64,000 bases of DNA from Oscillospiraceae bacterium (lineage in GTDB: Bacteria > Bacillota > Clostridia > Oscillospirales > Oscillospiraceae), in NCBI GenBank assembly GCA_902779945.1, contig CACZDN010000008.1, positions 1 through 64,000 of the forward strand, in the 5' to 3' direction. Positions 57,264 through 63,968 of the stretch are shown in pieces. The notes beneath the pieces are model-generated. The model made no database searches and was not told the DNA's origin. It saw only the letters and a list, made by a program, of their open reading frames with translations. Both the position numbers and the translations under genes were made by a program. Position 1 is the stretch's first letter, and the number at the start of each line of letters is the position of its first letter.

Positions 57264-58694
57264 ATGGCGGAGCTGAGACTGCCGGCGCCGAGCGAGAAGC
57301 AGAAGCTGTTTCTGCGGGACCGGCATAAGTATGTCGGCTACGGCGGCGCCCGCGGCGGCGGGAAGAGCTGGGCCGTGCGCGTCAAGGCGGTGCTGCTGTG
57401 CCTGCGGTACCCGGGGATCAAGGTCATGATCGTGCGCAAGACCTATCCGGAGCTCCAGGAGAACCACATCACTCCGCTGTGCGAGATGCTGGGCTGCTTT
57501 CTCGACGGGGAGGAGCGCATCGCCGCCTACAACGACACAAAAAAGCATATGGTCTTCCCCAATGGCAGCCGCATCCTCTTTCGCTATCTCGAAAACGAAA
57601 AGGACGCGCTGCGCTTCCAGGGCACGGAGGTGGACGTCCTGTTCGTGGACGAGGCCACCCACCAGAGCGAGAGCCGGATGCAGAAGCTCCGCGCCTGCGT
57701 GCGCGGCGCGAACGACTTCCCCAAGCGCATCTACATCACCTGCAATCCGGGCGGCGAGGGCCACGCCTGGGTCAAGCGCCTGTTTATCGACCGGCGCTTT
57801 CAGGAGGGGGAGGAGCCGGAGGAGCACAGCTTCATCCAGGCTCTCGTCACGGACAACCGCGCCCTCATGGAAAAGGACCCGGACTATGTCAGACAGCTCG
57901 AGTCCCTCCCGCCCAAGCTGCGCGAGGCGTGGCTCCGGGGAAGCTGGGACATCTTCGAGGGCCAGTTCTTCGAGGACTTCCGCATCGAGCCGGACATGAA
58001 GGCGGCGCTGGAGCACGGCTGCGAGCTGACGCGCGACGAGCTCAGAGCTCAGGGGCGCTGGTGCCATGTGATCGCGCCGCTGGACCTCACGAGCGGGCCG
58101 CGGCGCGGCTGGACCGTACTGCGCAGCTACGACTTCGGCTACGGCAAGCCCTTCTCCTGCGCGTGGTGGGCCGTGGATTACGACGGCGTGCTGTACCGCG
58201 CGCTGGAGCTCTACGGCTGTACGGGCACACCGAACGAGGGCCTGCGCTGGACCCCGGACCGGCAGTTTCAGGAGATCGCCCGCGTCGAGCGGGAGCACCC
58301 GTGGCTCCGCGGCAGGCGCATCGAGGGCGTGGCGGACCCCGCCATCTGGGACGCCAGCCGCGGCGAGAGCGTGGCCGAGACCGCGGCGCGCTATGGCGTC
58401 TACTTCACGCCGGGGGACAACAAGCGCATCGCCGGCTGGATGCAGTGCCACTACCGTCTCCAGTTCGATGGGGAGGGGAGAAGCCGCATGTATGTGTTCG
58501 ACAACTGCAGGGCCTTCGTCCGCACGGTCCCGCTCCTGCGGTTTTCCGACACGGAGCCCGAGGACCTGGACAGCGCGCAGGAGGACCACGCCGCCGACGA
58601 GTGGCGCTACCTCTGCATGGCAAGGCCGGTCACGCCGCTCAGACCCGTGGAGACGAAGGCGCTGATGGTGGATCCGCTGAAGACAAGACCGTAG
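57264..58694 (+). CDS. Phage terminase large subunit
   Basis: 476 residues. N-terminal packaging ATPase: Walker A YGGARGGGKSWA, Walker B VDVLFVDEATH and the coupling motif ITCNPGGEGHAW. The C-terminal RNase H-like nuclease shows SYDFGYG and the late acidic residues in GVADPAIWD. It cuts and pumps phage DNA into the prohead. Its 3' end is followed by an AGCCGCCCCTACGG palindrome piece and then the miniature element at 58719. Confidence 0.95.
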   Translation: MAELRLPAPSEKQKLFLRDRHKYVGYGGARGGGKSWAVRVKAVLLCLRYPGIKVMIVRKTYPELQENHITPLCEMLGCFLDGEERIAAYNDTKKHMVFPNGSRILFRYLENEKDALRFQGTEVDVLFVDEATHQSESRMQKLRACVRGANDFPKRIYITCNPGGEGHAWVKRLFIDRRFQEGEEPEEHSFIQALVTDNRALMEKDPDYVRQLESLPPKLREAWLRGSWDIFEGQFFEDFRIEPDMKAALEHGCELTRDELRAQGRWCHVIAPLDLTSGPRRGWTVLRSYDFGYGKPFSCAWWAVDYDGVLYRALELYGCTGTPNEGLRWTPDRQFQEIARVEREHPWLRGRRIEGVADPAIWDASRGESVAETAARYGVYFTPGDNKRIAGWMQCHYRLQFDGEGRSRMYVFDNCRAFVRTVPLLRFSDTEPEDLDSAQEDHAADEWRYLCMARPVTPLRPVETKALMVDPLKTRP

Positions 58695-58718: not shown

Positions 58719-58816
58719 GCAATACCGCATAATCCGCCTGCGGCATCTCCTGGAAAATATGTGTCCTGATTTCGTCACTTTTTCTTGAGGTACACAAAGT
58801 ACATCTGCGAAAAAGT
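58719..58816 (+). repeat. Miniature inverted-repeat element, copy 10, fused to the portal gene
   Basis: Starts GGCAATACCGCATAATCCGCC and matches the family through TACATCTGCGAAAAAGTG, where it stops at about 58816 and portal coding sequence begins. The right ~60 bp and any target duplication are missing. CTAC precedes it. Confidence 0.87.
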
Positions 58817-60629
58817 GGAGTTTACCCGCATCCTCCAGCGCTACAAGGCCGGGAAGGCCAGCATCGAGCGGCGCGCGGTGGCGGCGGAGAACTGGTGGAA
58901 GCTGCGCAACAGCGCCGAGGAGCGCAGGACGCATGAGAAGGACGGAGGCTTTCAGGCCGTGTCCGGTTGGCTGCACAACGTGATCGTCTCCAAGCACGCC
59001 GACGCGATGGACGCCTTTCCGGAGCCGAACATCCTGCCGCGCGAGCCAGACGACCGCCGGGAGGCGCGGGTGCTGTCGAAGATCCTGCCCGTCATCCTTG
59101 AGCAGAACGCCTTCGAGAAGACCTACTCCGACGGTATGTGGCAGAAGCTCAAGACCGGTACGGGCGTCTACCGCGTGGGCTGGGATGCGGAGAAGGCCGG
59201 CGGCCTCGGCGACATCGCGATCGAGCGCGTCGACCTGCTCAACGTCTTCTGGGAGCCCGGTGTGCGCGACGTGCAGGACAGCGCCTATTTTTTCCACACC
59301 AGGCTGGAGGATAACGACGCCCTCGCGGCGCGCTACCCGGAGCTTGCGGGAAAGCTGAAGGGCACGGGCTTCGCCCCGACGCGCTTTCTGTACGACGACA
59401 GCGTCCCGGTCGACGGGAAGACCACGGTCATCGACGTGTATTACAAGAGGAGGCATCAGGGCCGCGACGTGCTGCACTTCTGCAAGTACGCGGGCAATAC
59501 GCTCCTGTGCTCGACGGAGAACAGCGACGCGCTGCGCGAGAGCGCGGGCGAGACGGATTTCCCCCGCGGGCTCTACGGCCACGGGCGCTATCCCTTTGTT
59601 TTCGACAGCCTCTTTCCCATCGAGGGCAGCCCCTGCGGCTACGGCTTCATCGACCTCTGCCGCAACGCCCAGACGCAGATCGACATGCTGCAGACCGCCT
59701 TTCTCAAAAATTCGATGGTGGGCGCGGTGCCGCGCTATTTCCAGCGGGCCGACGGCGCGGTGAACGAGGAGGAGTTTCTGAACCTGAATAACCCCATCGT
59801 CCACGTCAGCGGCAACCTGGGCGAAGACAGCCTGCGCATTGTGGACTACCGCCCGCTCAGCGGCAACTATCTCGAGATGCGCTCGAGCGTCATCAACGAG
59901 CTGCGCGAGACCTCGGGCAATACGGAGACCTCGGCGGGGCTCGTCAACGCGGGCGTCACCGCCGCCTCGGCCATCGCGGCCCTGCAGGAGGCCAGCGGCA
60001 AGGGCAGCCGCGACGCGACCCGCGCAAGCTACCGCGCCTACGCGGAGATGATCGAGCTGTGCATCGAGCTCATCCGCCAGTTCTACGACCTGCCGCGCCA
60101 GTTTCGCATCACGGGCGGGCTGGGACTCGAGCAGTTCGTGAGCTTTGACAACGCGGGGCTGCGGGACCAGCCGCTCGAGGGCCCCGAGGGCGTGGACCTC
60201 GGCCTGCGGCGGCCGGTCTTCGACGTGCGGGTCATCCCGCAGCGCGGCAGCGCCTACACCCGCATGAGCCAGAACGAGCTGGCCCTGCAGTTTTACCAGC
60301 TCGGCTTCTTCTCCGCGGACAGGAGCGACCAGGCTCTCGCCTGCATGAGCATGATGGAGTTCGAGGGCAAGGACGAGCTGATGCAGCAGCTTTTCTACAA
60401 CGGGAACCTGCAGAAGCAGCTCGCCCTCTATCAGCAGTACGCCCTGGCCCTGACGCAGAAGTACGAGCCGGACAGAGCCGGGGCACTGATGGCGGGCATC
60501 ACGGGGCACGCGGATAGGCCGGTCAAAGCCGCCGCGGCCGGGAAACGGAAGACCCCGCGCGAGGCGTCCCATATGGAGCGGGCGAGAGCGCGGGCGGCCG
60601 GCGCGTCCCTGCCGGGAGACGGAAGATGA
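58785..60629 (+). CDS. Phage portal protein, N-terminus encoded by a miniature element
   Basis: 614 residues from a TTG at 58785, or 604 from a GTG at 58815; neither has a good ribosome site. Residues 1-10 (LRYTKYICEK) are translated from the inserted repeat, and true homology seems to begin at EFTRILQRYK. The body looks like a large portal of the P22-like/podovirus group: VYRVGWDAEKAGG, an NVFWEPGVRDVQD segment, NTETSAGLVNAGV and a long helical stem. Twelve copies normally form the DNA gate. The original 5' end appears lost, so translation may be weak or the prophage defective. Confidence 0.85.
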   Translation: MRYTKYICEKVEFTRILQRYKAGKASIERRAVAAENWWKLRNSAEERRTHEKDGGFQAVSGWLHNVIVSKHADAMDAFPEPNILPREPDDRREARVLSKILPVILEQNAFEKTYSDGMWQKLKTGTGVYRVGWDAEKAGGLGDIAIERVDLLNVFWEPGVRDVQDSAYFFHTRLEDNDALAARYPELAGKLKGTGFAPTRFLYDDSVPVDGKTTVIDVYYKRRHQGRDVLHFCKYAGNTLLCSTENSDALRESAGETDFPRGLYGHGRYPFVFDSLFPIEGSPCGYGFIDLCRNAQTQIDMLQTAFLKNSMVGAVPRYFQRADGAVNEEEFLNLNNPIVHVSGNLGEDSLRIVDYRPLSGNYLEMRSSVINELRETSGNTETSAGLVNAGVTAASAIAALQEASGKGSRDATRASYRAYAEMIELCIELIRQFYDLPRQFRITGGLGLEQFVSFDNAGLRDQPLEGPEGVDLGLRRPVFDVRVIPQRGSAYTRMSQNELALQFYQLGFFSADRSDQALACMSMMEFEGKDELMQQLFYNGNLQKQLALYQQYALALTQKYEPDRAGALMAGITGHADRPVKAAAAGKRKTPREASHMERARARAAGASLPGDGR

Positions 60630-60967
60630 CGCGCGTGCGCTATGACCGGGCCGCTCTCCGTCTCGAGATGGAGGGCCACGCCGGTGCGGGGGCATACGGC
60701 GCGGATACCGTGTGCGCTGCGCTGAGCATCCTGATGATGGCGCTCGAGCGGCGCATGGAGGAGCGGGCCGAGAAAACGCTCCCGGTGATCCGCCGTGGTG
60801 CGGGCAGCTTCATGCTCGAATGCCGGCCCGAGGCGGAAGACGAGGCGCTCTGCCGCGAGAGCTTCGACACCGTGGCTGCGGGCCTTGCCCTCCTGGCGGA
60901 GAACCGGGCGGACTGCGTATGCTTTCGCATGGAGGGAGAAGATTTGGAAGAGGAGGACGAGGGATGA
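60626..60967 (+). CDS. Prp-like cysteine protease encoded by the prophage
   Basis: 113 residues. GHAGAGAYGADTVCAALSIL is the Prp (YsxB) active-site segment: catalytic His and Cys are 12 residues apart, as in Staphylococcus Prp. Prp is known to trim the N-terminal extension of ribosomal protein L27 and the capsid and scaffold proteins of phage 80alpha. Here the gene overlaps the portal stop by four bases and lies three genes before the capsid gene, so capsid maturation is the likely task. The C-terminus is very acidic (EDLEEEDEG). Confidence 0.85.
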   Translation: MTRVRYDRAALRLEMEGHAGAGAYGADTVCAALSILMMALERRMEERAEKTLPVIRRGAGSFMLECRPEAEDEALCRESFDTVAAGLALLAENRADCVCFRMEGEDLEEEDEG

Positions 60968-61623
60968 GCGGAAACCAGGACGAGAGAAGAAGGGCGGCGT
61001 ATGCCGACACGATGGAGGCGCTGCGCATGGCGGAGAGCGCCCTGCCGGATTTCACAAGCGACTACGACGGACAGATCGCGAGCCTCTATGAGAAGATCGT
61101 CAACAGGCCGGCCTTCCGCTATGACCCGGTCGCCGACCCCCTGTACCGGTATTACCGGGACGAGATGCTGACCGAGGGCGGCCGCGCCATGCGCGACGGG
61201 ATGGGCCAGGCGGCGGCGCTCACGGGGGGCTACGGCTCCAGCTACGCCGAAAACGCGGGCCGGCAGCAGTACGGGCTGTATCTGGAGAAGCTGGGCCAGG
61301 TGATGCCGGAGCTCTACCAGGCCGCCTACGAGCGCTACCGCGACGAGGGGAACGCCCTGTACCGCAGCCTGAACACGGCGAAGGGTCTCGCCGAGAGCGC
61401 GTATGCACGCAGGAACGAGCGCTTTGAGCAGGCGTCCCGGCTCGAGCAGCAGCAGTATGAGCGCGGTGAAAAGAGCTACGACAAGCTCGTGAGCCTCATC
61501 GCCCAGACCGGCTACCAGCCCGAGGACAAGGAGCTCGAGGCGGCGGGTCTCAGCCGCGCGCAGGCCGAGGCGCTGCGCAGCGCGTACCTGCTGCAGAACC
61601 CGCTGGCCGCAGCAATATTATGA
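60964..61623 (+). CDS. Phage structural-region protein of unknown function
   Basis: 219 residues from the ATG overlapping the Prp-like stop (ATGA). Charged and helical, with a Gly/Tyr-rich centre (ALTGGYGSSYAENAGRQQYG) and a coiled-coil second half (ERFEQASRLEQQQYERG). Genes like this lie between portal and scaffold in many clostridial prophages and may encode an internal head or connector protein. No firm family. Confidence 0.65.
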   Translation: MSGNQDERRRAAYADTMEALRMAESALPDFTSDYDGQIASLYEKIVNRPAFRYDPVADPLYRYYRDEMLTEGGRAMRDGMGQAAALTGGYGSSYAENAGRQQYGLYLEKLGQVMPELYQAAYERYRDEGNALYRSLNTAKGLAESAYARRNERFEQASRLEQQQYERGEKSYDKLVSLIAQTGYQPEDKELEAAGLSRAQAEALRSAYLLQNPLAAAIL

Positions 61624-61688
61624 AGAAAGCCCTTCCCCGGCGAAAACGCCGGTTCCCCGCTGCAGAGGGGATAGATAAGGAGGAGAAC

Positions 61689-62441
61689 ATGCACAGCGAA
61701 GACATCAAAAAGCCGGCCGAAGAGCCGGTCACGGGCGAAACAGCCGAAGCGCCGCAGGGCGCGGAGGAGAACGCGGCCCCGTCTGCCGACGCCGGGCAGG
61801 AAGACGAGGGGCCAAAGACGCGCCCGAGCTGGGAGGAGATCCTGCAAGACCCCGATTACAGGAGCCGCTACGACGCGGCGGTGCAGGGCATCGTCAAGGC
61901 GCGGCTGCGCGGCAGAGCGCAGGCCGAGGAAAAGCTGCAGCGGCTTGAGCCGGTGCTGCGGGCGCTGGAGGAGGCCTACGGTCTCGCGGAGGACACGGAC
62001 GCCTCCGCCCTCGCCGAGACCCTGCGCGAGAGCGCCGGTCTGCGCCGTCCGCGCGCGGAAGAGATCGAGCAACACCTGCAGGGCCTTCTGAGCGAGGCCG
62101 AGGCCCTGCGCCGGAGCGTGCCGGACTTCGACCTGCTGCGCGAGCTGGAGGACCCGGATTTCCTGCGCCTGACCGCGCCGCACAGCAAGGTCTCCCTTGA
62201 GGACGCCTATTACGCGAGACACCGCCGGGCGCGCGAGCAGGAGACCGCGCGGCGCAGTCTCGAGGCGGTCAGCCGGAGCCTCCAAAGTCTCGGCGCGAGG
62301 CCGCGCGAACTCCGGGAGACCACAGCGGGCGCGCGCTTCACCGTCGATCCCCGGTCCATGACGAGACAGGAGCGCGAGGACCTCAAAAAGCGCATCCGCA
62401 AGGCCGGCGCCGAGGGGAGGAGCCTCGGCGTCGGGGAGTAA
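61689..62441 (+). CDS. Phage capsid scaffold-like protein
   Basis: 250 residues from the ATG at 61689 (AAGGAGGAGAAC). An acidic, disordered N-terminus (residues 1-45) leads into long charged helices (RAQAEEKLQRLEPVLRALEE; RRAREQETARRSLEAV) and a basic C-terminal helix (MTRQEREDLKKRIRKAG), the usual build of a scaffolding protein whose basic end touches the capsid. Position directly before the capsid gene fits. It has no LQxFA-type cleavage motif at its N-terminus. Confidence 0.75.
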   Translation: MHSEDIKKPAEEPVTGETAEAPQGAEENAAPSADAGQEDEGPKTRPSWEEILQDPDYRSRYDAAVQGIVKARLRGRAQAEEKLQRLEPVLRALEEAYGLAEDTDASALAETLRESAGLRRPRAEEIEQHLQGLLSEAEALRRSVPDFDLLRELEDPDFLRLTAPHSKVSLEDAYYARHRRAREQETARRSLEAVSRSLQSLGARPRELRETTAGARFTVDPRSMTRQEREDLKKRIRKAGAEGRSLGVGE

Positions 62442-62446
62442 AAAAC

Positions 62447-62585
62447 CGATTGCAAACTCTGTTTGCAATCGAGGGACTCGCGCATATCGCACGCGGCGGT
62501 GCGTAACACGCCGCGTTTGGTCGGCGCGAGGCCTCGCATTGCTCGGCTCAAGGTGTTTTTGAAGAAGCAACGCTCCTTCAAAAAC
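62447..62585. repeat. Three-hairpin structured repeat, copy 3, inside the phage structural genes
   Basis: Hairpin CGATTGCAAAC/GTTTGCAATCG (62447-62471), GGGACTCGCGCATATCGC, a CGCGGCG/CGCCGCG stem, GGTCGGCGCGAG and hairpin GTTTTTGAAG/CTTCAAAAAC (62555-62585) preceded by AAGGTG. Lies between scaffold and capsid genes, in the orientation of the copy at 15738. A further hairpin, TTTGAAAAC/GTTTTCAAA, begins at about 63975 after the capsid gene and may be the start of a fourth copy cut by the window edge. Confidence 0.6.
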
Positions 62586-62663
62586 GGTTTGGATTCCCTG
62601 CGGGACCCATATCCAATGCTTTCACAATCGCCTGAATGATAAAAGAAAGGATGATTCTGCAAT

Positions 62664-63968
62664 ATGAAATTTGACCTTCAGCATTTTGCCGAGGCGGGAA
62701 CGCTGGTCAACGCCACCGGCAGCTTTGTCAACGCCGCCACCGGCGAGACCACCGCGTTTGACAGCGCGCACACGCTGACGCCGGAGCTCAAGGCCTTCTA
62801 CGACACGGAGCTGCTGGAGAATGCGCGGGCGGAGCTCATCTACGCGCAGTTCGGCAAGCGCCAGCCCCTGCCGAAGAACCACCACGGCAGCGTCGAATGG
62901 CGCAAGTGGAACACCTTCGAGAAGGCCGCGAGGCTCACCGAGGGCGTGATCCCCACGGGGCAGAAGTTCGGCGTGACCGCGGTGACCGGCAGCATCGACC
63001 AGTACGGTACGTACACCGCCATCACCGACAGACTGGAGCTCAGAGCCTATGACGACGTGATCCTCGGCGCGACCGAGGAGATGGGCGCCTCCGCCGCCGA
63101 GACCCAGGAGGCCCTGATCCGCGACGCGCTGTATACCAACACCAACGTCCTCTACTGCGACAAGACCGCCTGCGCGGACGGCAGCGTCGTCTCGACGCCC
63201 GTCAGGCAGAGCGAGCTCACCGAGGACGCGACCTATCATTGCCGCCTCACGCCCGAGATGGTCAACAGGGCCGTCACCGTGATGAAGAAAAATCGCGTGC
63301 CCAAGATCGGCGGCAAGTACTTCGCGGTCGTCCATCCGTCGGTGGCGCACGACCTGCGCTCCGACGAAAGCTGGATCGCGGCGCACAAGTACGCCTCCCC
63401 CGAGGAGATTTTCAACGGCGAGATCGGCGAGCTGCACGGCGTGCGTTTCATCGAAGACGTCTTCGCCCCCATCCTACAGGGCGAGAACCTGGCGGCCGAC
63501 AGCCGCACCCTCACGGTCGACCACGCGGCGGGCTACAGCGGCACGATCACCAGCGTCGCCTTCGACGGCGGCACGGTGGAGGCGGATGCGCTGATCGGCA
63601 GGACCATCCTGATCAACGGCGTGACGGCGGTCGTCACCGGCAACACCGCAAGCTCCATCAGCTTTGCCGGCACCAACTTCGGCTCCGTCGCGGACAACGC
63701 GGTCATCTACCCCGGCGAGGGCGCGGGCGGCGGCGTGGCGGCCTACGCCTCCTACTTCTTCGGAAAGGACAGCTTCGGGATCATCGACCCAGAAGGCGGA
63801 GCGCTCGAAATGATCGTCCACGACAAGGGTGAGATCGGCGGCCCGCTCAACCAGTTCAGCACCATCGGCTACAAGTTCGAGACCAACGGCGCCACCATCC
63901 TCTACCCTGAGCGCCTGCTGCGCGTGATGAGCACGTCCAGCTTCTCGGCAACCGATCAGGCCAACTGA
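62664..63968 (+). CDS. Major capsid protein, N4-gp56 family
   Basis: 434 residues. The pattern matches N4-gp56-type capsids: ELLENARAELIYAQFGKR, NHHGSVEWRKW, TEGVIPTG, TAITDRLELRAYDD, GGKYFAVVHPSVAHDL and ASPEEIFNGEIGELHGVRF. A Thr/Gly-rich insertion lies at about 275-355. The N-terminus MKFDLQHFA looks like the LNLQFFA cleavage motif of Prp substrates, and a Prp-like protease is encoded upstream. An AAAGAAAGGATGATTCTGCAAT stretch, with AAAGG about 15 bases before the ATG, provides a weak ribosome site. Confidence 0.9.
   Translation: MKFDLQHFAEAGTLVNATGSFVNAATGETTAFDSAHTLTPELKAFYDTELLENARAELIYAQFGKRQPLPKNHHGSVEWRKWNTFEKAARLTEGVIPTGQKFGVTAVTGSIDQYGTYTAITDRLELRAYDDVILGATEEMGASAAETQEALIRDALYTNTNVLYCDKTACADGSVVSTPVRQSELTEDATYHCRLTPEMVNRAVTVMKKNRVPKIGGKYFAVVHPSVAHDLRSDESWIAAHKYASPEEIFNGEIGELHGVRFIEDVFAPILQGENLAADSRTLTVDHAAGYSGTITSVAFDGGTVEADALIGRTILINGVTAVVTGNTASSISFAGTNFGSVADNAVIYPGEGAGGGVAAYASYFFGKDSFGIIDPEGGALEMIVHDKGEIGGPLNQFSTIGYKFETNGATILYPERLLRVMSTSSFSATDQAN

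Follow-up and report, generated by a model that had tools for sequence, protein, structure and literature searches.

Gene Order and Identity of the Protease

The end of the window (the whole stretch of 64,000 nucleotides analysed here, from contig CACZDN010000008.1 of an Oscillospiraceae bacterium) holds the first genes of a prophage head module (+ strand), in which a gene for a Prp-type cysteine protease (60626..60967, +) adjoins the portal gene and the gene for the major capsid protein (62664..63968, +) is found two genes beyond it. The product of the Prp gene has 113 amino acids and matches PF04327 (Peptidase_Prp) in Pfam with E 6.2e-11 and 42.8 bits, the cut-off being 27, and it also matches the PHROG family phrog_4478, 'peptidase'. 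Its catalytic pair, His18 and Cys30, is 12 positions apart (loop H-x11-C) and is invariant in an alignment of 13 phage Prps, and the residues G17 H18, G25, D27 and C30 carry the signature of the Prp family, that is, Gly and Asp at C-5 and C-3 together with the 11-residue loop. When the profile of the 13 phage Prps was compared with the PDB, the solved Prps 2g0i, 2idl, 4peo/7kld and 7jvs, among them SaPrp, were matched at E ≤5e-9, and 1s12 at E 0.02. The gene at 60626 is therefore a true Prp, as the sequence-only reading of this DNA had claimed. Against the NCBIfam Prp equivalogs it reaches at most 28 bits (cut-offs of at least 133), so that it falls outside the annotated ribosomal Prp subgroups. 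The start of the Prp gene overlaps the stop of the portal gene by 4 nt, as is expected of coupled genes, and this bears out its earlier placement beside the portal.

The capsid protein (434 aa) belongs to the N4-gp56 family, as had also been proposed, with 177.4 bits against the TIGR04387 cut-off of 60 and a match to phrog_1357 at 1.4e-61. Its N-terminus, MKFDLQHFA, is a true Prp-type motif, in which FDLQHF|A stands beside the NLQHF'A of the capsid of phage 80alpha (PMC9405229 Table 1), and the N-termini of relatives are of the same kind. Since the Prp cuts given in the published accounts cited here fall between Phe and Ala (PMC5744158; PMC9405229 Table 1), the cut is predicted at F8|A9 and not at A9|E10, where it had been put before; the predicted prosequence MKFDLQHF would then be encoded by 62664..62687 (+).

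The other genes of the module lie on the same strand. The large terminase subunit TerL (57264..58694, +; PF03237 5.6e-17, phrog_979/phrog_2) is followed by a P22-like portal protein (58785..60629, +; PF16510 1.7e-27, phrog_156 5e-71), the start codon of which is uncertain. Behind the Prp gene comes a conserved head-module protein of 219 aa (60964..61623, +) with no assigned function, for which no Pfam match and only chance-level PHROG matches were obtained, and which has relatives on many related phage stretches. The probable scaffold (about 61689..62441, +), with a likely start at MHSEDIKK, matches phrog_13908 at 5.7e-23 (function unassigned); here and in the relatives, scaffolds were assigned by position, as the open reading frame (ORF) right before the capsid, and not by homology. 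In a motif scan of this scaffold (61689-62441) no Prp motif was found. Between scaffold and capsid lie about 220 bases without an evident gene (window:62442-62663), with a short inverted repeat near their start (ttgcaaactctgtttgcaa).

Host Genome and Ribosomal Protein L27

The host genome, which is 85.8% complete, contains a single Prp match, namely the Prp of the window. Its L27 starts with MAHKKG (ATG GCA CAT AAA AAA GGT) right behind a GGAGGA ribosome-binding site, and the stop codon of L21 lies 41 nt upstream of L27 with no prp between the two genes. That is to say, neither feature of a ribosomal Prp, a gene between rplU and rpmA and an extended L27 in the genome, applies to the window Prp, and dependence on a host Prp of the 80alpha kind does not apply either, the phage having its own Prp and the genome no other match. 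With neither another Prp nor an extended L27 found, the Prp would have no ribosomal task in this host. The window Prp resembles a host ribosomal Prp (ysxB, between rplU and rpmA) in family, catalytic pair and H-x11-C loop, and the L27 motif of the latter, LQFF'A, is of the same type as the window capsid motif; unlike the ribosomal enzyme, the window Prp adjoins a portal and lies on another contig than L27.

It could be thought that the phage Prp acts on L27 of the host ribosome or competes with a host Prp, because L27 is the best known substrate of the Prp family (PMC9405229), and the sequence-only reading had suggested such a competition with, or bypass of, the L27-ripening enzyme. However, the L27 of this host is unextended and no second Prp was matched in the genome, and in a tree of 83 rows the phage and host Prps stand on two sides of one branch (SH-aLRT 90, from few columns), with the window Prp among the phage Prps. 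The ribosomal link is thus contradicted for this host, and an action of the phage Prp on L27 is very improbable.

A survey of the order covered 147 genomes, the window's included, in which L27 was classed as long or short by pattern search and a Prp match was accepted anywhere in the genome. The long-L27 pattern was found in 103 genomes, all 103 with a Prp match; the presence of Prp in every species with a long L27 had been published before (PMC9405229 section 3.1). Only the short pattern was found in 31 genomes; in 2 of these, G159 and the genome of the window, there is a Prp, each time next to a phage head. Neither pattern was found in 13 genomes (2 with Prp, 11 without), which belong to neither class here, pattern searches being liable to miss variants. 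Both patterns occur in two genomes, G067 (G067:C1:174406 and G067:C31:2118) and G120 (G120:C119:205 and G120:C128:6436), as second copies or mixed assemblies. The short-L27 pattern is matched by 32 of 36 same-genus relatives. The genomes with close capsid relatives (at least 79 loci) are mostly labelled Oscillospiraceae, Ruminococcaceae, Clostridiales or Clostridia, and many of those named assemblies come from ruminant guts.

The idea that a phage brings a Prp because its host has none was rejected as a general rule, since phages of this capsid family with their own Prp also occur in long-L27 genomes that bear a Prp (for example, G144, G076, G090, G055 and G146). It describes the case of the window only.

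Co-Occurrence of Prp and Capsid Motif in Related Phages

Among same-genus relatives, Prps were found at 18 places in 16 of the 36 genomes, and all 18 stretches also carry a P22-like portal and TerL. With the window included, the family capsid was found on 15 of 19 Prp stretches; the N-terminus of these capsids reads [LI]QxFA in 14 cases and, as a variant, LKLF|S in one. For the wider sample the matches listed from IMG/VR and from named genomes were used, not totals, so that the counts built on them are sample counts. Among the matches listed from IMG/VR, a portal is present at 80 of 80 loci found from the Prp, and a Prp at 69 of 80 found from the capsid. Two classes of motif were distinguished by regular expression plus reading by eye, Q-type (mostly [LI]QxF|A) and Q-less (LxLF|D/G/E/S), and capsid relatives without Prp served as the comparison group for motif frequency.

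The whole interval from portal to capsid is present for 148 of 195 unique capsid cores. A Prp is borne by 143 of these (nonredundant), of which 129 have a Q-type motif near the capsid N-terminus (121 as [LI]QxFA), 13 have a Q-less motif and one was scored 'none', although by eye it reads LMF|D (L232). The remaining five comprise a Q motif beside a divergent Prp-like ORF (L068), a motif without Prp (L247) and three intervals with neither (L066, L249 and L253). The enrichment of the motif in Prp-bearing relatives, set beforehand as a test of the proposal, is therefore positive. Over 193 rows, taken without deduplication, Prp and capsid lie a median of 1.3 kb and at most 2.9 kb apart. From named genomes, 76 unique capsids were scored by capsid alignment search: 53 combine a Q motif with a Prp, the loop of which has 11 residues in 51 and 13 in 2, one has a Prp and NLQYYA (L347, scored 'none' in this count), 8 bear the motif with too little sequence upstream, and for 14 no Prp was seen within 2.9 kb or more upstream, so that their genomes were then searched.

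Some regular-expression hits to the capsid motif were rejected as spurious when read by eye: PMQTLT (L070), IEKFG (L252) and AGQDLS/ANQDLS (L232, L239). Three loci differ in structure. At L039:9065-18001 (G019:C1), portal and Prp are followed by an ORF of 574 aa and then by one of more than 1,900 aa, and the family capsid was not found on the stretch. At L230:3087-5969, the portal frame continues into the capsid with no Prp, scaffold or prosequence between them; this was taken as a deletion or misassembly and kept outside the interval table. At L043:1908-3039, the capsid reading frame is broken across two frames and adjoins a Prp and a motif-bearing probable scaffold.

Co-Variation of the His-Cys Loop and the Capsid Motif

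Among 153 nonredundant Prp-capsid pairs, the Prp has an 11-residue loop between His and Cys in 133 of 135 pairs with a Q-type capsid and in 0 of 18 with a Q-less one; in these pair counts L232 (LMF|D) and L236 (LRAF|D) were moved by eye from 'none' to Q-less. The search pattern used for the Prp-first loci of IMG/VR includes the canonical loop and is thereby biased towards it, and when the 44 pairs concerned were removed, the remaining 109 gave the 11-residue loop in 89 of 91 Q-type and 0 of 18 Q-less pairs. With 42 pairs from named genomes added to the full set, the figures are 173 of 177 and 0 of 18, L347 being counted as Q-type. Asp at C-3 is found in 177 of 177 Prps paired with Q-type capsids vs 8 of 18 paired with Q-less ones, and Gly at C-5 in 176 of 177 vs 9 of 18. 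In the structural account of SaPrp, the Gln at P3 of the substrate holds loop L2 through Gly29 and Asp31, which places His22 near Cys34 (PMC9405229 section 3.4.1). Since the residues at C-5 and C-3 correspond to Gly29 and Asp31, the co-variation sits at the contact with the P3 Gln. Among host Prps beside a long L27, 16 of 19 have the 11-residue loop by regular expression, and L003, L006 and L019, for which the expression had begun too early, have it by eye.

As these phages are akin to one another and both traits occur in most of the members sampled, Prp and motif might merely have been inherited together in one phage clade without any functional link; the uncorrected Fisher p (about 1e-18 and below) ignores this relatedness. 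Trees were therefore built with FastTree, and on that of the capsid alone only 3 independent supported pairs are available (p 0.25), so that the co-variation is not significant there. However, in the concatenated trees the two traits shift jointly, and do so on independent branches: on the 96-row tree built from portal, TerL and capsid, all 6 of the supported independent pairs are concordant (p 0.031), and on that including the Prp-first rows (138), 7 pairs are available, 6.8 of them on average concordant (p 0.016). A separate protein, the scaffold, tends to shift as well, and the prosequence is missing in many members without Prp. Mere co-inheritance is therefore scarcely credible.

In detail, a scaffold was found in 120 of the 135 Q-type phages, with 84 Q-type hits (at least one of them spurious, AQSLE), 1 Q-less hit and 35 without a hit. 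For the 18 Q-less phages, the scaffold has a Q-less hit (LRLF|D and similar) in 10, a spurious Q hit in 3 and none in 4, and it was not found in 1. The scaffold hits AQSLE, GQPFG, AQALA and KQFFD are artefacts by eye. Scaffold motifs thus tend to shift in the direction of the capsid. A description of the co-variation of loop and motif was not found in the Prp literature searched, the coverage of which lay outside the primary Prp papers, and the co-variation across natural Prp-capsid pairs is new here.

Relatives without a Prp of Their Own

Many relatives without Prp are also without the prosequence, and exceptions exist. In a short-L27 host with no Prp match (L066), the capsid starts with MSNTQTT..., near the position at which its relatives would be cut, and the scaffold has no motif. 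Neither motif nor Prp match was found for L070 and L075, whose genomes are 77% and 55% complete, the contig of L075 being short. By eye, L384 and L405 are without a motif; their genomes are of the short-L27 kind and gave no Prp match. The regular-expression labels of these two ('Q' and 'nonQ', respectively) were spurious. In the host of L405, L27 starts with TTG behind GGAGGT, and no prp lies between L21 and L27. The IMG/VR records L254, L303, L310, L311 and L322 show neither motif nor Prp match. INPHARED holds 78 records with a related capsid, 7 of which were examined: neither a Prp match nor the motif was seen in Bacillus phage Pony, Paenibacillus API480, Pseudoalteromonas Y3, Streptomyces Kumquat and Pseudomonas Rollin, while MT835607 (L247) bears the motif and lacks a Prp, and MT839259 (L246) is a 4.4-kb piece with the motif. 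A tblastn search of the window Prp against INPHARED gave no match.

Other relatives bear the motif while a Prp was not seen beside the capsid. L059, L062 and L072 have the motif, and 8 kb or more of upstream sequence shows no Prp; the genomes concerned (G140, G098 and G064, respectively) have a long L27 with an adjoining Prp and further Prps on other contigs. In IMG/VR, L235, L319 and L320 have the motif and no Prp near the capsid, yet a Prp elsewhere on the record, and in L332, L360, L372, L374, L391 and L399 the Prp lies farther away on what is taken as the same contig. For all these loci except L072 (for G140 and G098 as the pairs L059/L079 and L062/L082), no portal was detected just upstream of the motif-bearing capsid, and in G140 and G098 a Prp lies on another contig together with a portal. 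Motif-bearing capsids without an adjacent portal, with the Prp elsewhere, indicate a different arrangement of the head genes in some members of the capsid family. L386 is a 7.6-kb fragment with Prps elsewhere in its genome, and L172 is a fragment with the motif and no Prp. L390, L393 and L397 have motif and portal and no phage Prp, and their long-L27 genomes, which are draft assemblies, have a single Prp match beside L27; these three phages may depend on the host Prp as 80alpha does.

Comparison with Known Phages

In phage 80alpha, the cut falls between F and A in both capsid and scaffold, and the protease is the Prp of the host (PMC5744158). Its capsid N-terminus is of the same type as that of the window phage. 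The 80alpha scaffold carries the motif, as do many relatives of the window phage, whereas the window scaffold does not; and 80alpha, without a protease of its own, relies on the host Prp, whereas the window phage encodes a Prp and no host Prp was found. Unlike 80alpha, the window phage has a capsid and portal that match the N4-gp56 and P22-like families, and cleavage, demonstrated for 80alpha, is predicted here.

The encoding of Prp by a phage is not new as such, because Streptococcus phage Cp-1 is a precedent: its protease, placed in MEROPS C108 (the Prp family), removes 48 residues of the head protein (PMC12445089). Like the window phage, Cp-1 has its own Prp-family protease acting on the major head protein of the phage, while its capsid is of the phi29 type (PF25622), unlike the N4-gp56 capsid of the window. 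The protease is presumably orf13, which shows a weak PF04327 similarity (18.5 bits, below the cut-off). In orf13 there are 7 residues between His and Cys, and residues 1-130 of the head protein contain no [LI]QxF; YQDF stands at 53-56, beyond the reported cut. Cp-1, though not of this family, thus agrees with the loop rule, as one weakly matched case.

A further phage type is seen at L078:3683-8202 (G140:C75), where a phage with an SPP1-like portal has its own Prp and three LQLF-bearing proteins, namely the scaffold (PF14265), the capsid (phrog_544) and the major tail protein (PF06199, LQLF|G). Its genome also has a Prp beside a long L27. PF14265 is named 'Capsid assembly scaffolding protein Gp46', the name borne by the 80alpha scaffold (PMC9405229 Table 1). 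Since L078 differs in type from the window phage and yet has its own Prp with a motif-bearing capsid, phage-encoded Prp is wider than the phage family of the window.

Proposed Function and Meaning

The prophage Prp is very probably a dedicated head-maturation protease that would cut the capsid protein after Phe8 and would have no ribosomal task in this host. This remains the best reading of the locus and has strong comparative support; judged from the sequences, the assignment of the enzyme to the capsid is in all likelihood correct once the cut is shifted by a single residue. In the mechanism proposed, the Prp would be made in step with the portal and would bind the N-terminus of the freshly made capsid protein; it would then cut behind Phe8 of MKFDLQHF|AEAG, leaving Ala9 as the first residue of the mature capsid. 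The scaffold of the window phage is without such a site, and that of many relatives has one as well as the capsid.

Besides the capsid-only tree mentioned above, several observations weigh against this reading. The Prp stretches L035, L038, L039 and L042 showed no capsid of this family over the length examined. Four Q-type capsids (L185, L277, L392 and L404) are paired with a Prp loop other than 11 residues, and L347, with NLQYYA, has Tyr at P1. L385 has motif and portal without an adjoining Prp in a short-L27 host, with one Prp on another contig; L395 has the motif, with no Prp match in its genome and the L27 pattern not found there; L247 (MT835607) has motif and portal and no Prp in a 25-kb record; and L300 has the motif and no Prp in a 9.5-kb fragment. 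The Prp-like ORF behind the portal at L068:10848-11189 scores 14.6 bits, below the Pfam cut-off; its GH...CC loop is very long and lacks an Asp ahead of the Cys, and the capsid and probable scaffold beside it are both Q-type. Finally, 80alpha mutants with pre-cleaved or uncleavable capsid are viable (PMC5744158), so that cleavage may not be essential.

In another explanation, the Prp would mainly be an assembly chaperone that holds capsid and scaffold by the N-terminal motif until assembly, cutting being secondary or dispensable. SaPrp has been proposed as a chaperone of L27, with the cleaved peptide as a competitive inhibitor (PMC9405229 section 3.3), and 80alpha, for which cleavage of the capsid is dispensable, needs an intact scaffold N-terminus (PMC5744158). 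However, His and Cys are kept in all 57 aligned Prps, and Q-type capsids have Phe at P1 in 134 of 135 cases and Ala at P1' in 132 of 135, a near-invariance that is the constraint expected of a cut site. A role mainly as chaperone is therefore distinctly unlikely.

Beyond the role of the Prp as a capsid protease, it may be speculated that Prp was at first an enzyme of phage head maturation and that the Firmicutes-type pair of Prp and long L27 is a domesticated phage protease together with its substrate tag, an origin that we regard as rather unlikely and put forward tentatively. Under such a domestication, phages of this group would show three states, with their own Prp, with a borrowed host Prp or without prosequence, and the length of the His-Cys loop would predict which tag each enzyme cuts. 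The Prp tree is unrooted and weakly resolved, so that the branch between phage and host Prps is compatible with domestication and gives no direction.

For the Prp family, these phages offer a large set of natural enzyme-substrate pairs, the partners of which are usually encoded about 1.3 kb apart, and in these pairs a structural claim made in print, that the catalytic loop of Prp is held by the P3 Gln, can be traced in evolution. The host of the window, having no visible ribosomal use for a Prp, separates the phage role of the enzyme from the ribosomal one. The finding may also bear on Prp as a proposed antibiotic target, in that phages can carry the enzyme into bacteria without Prp.

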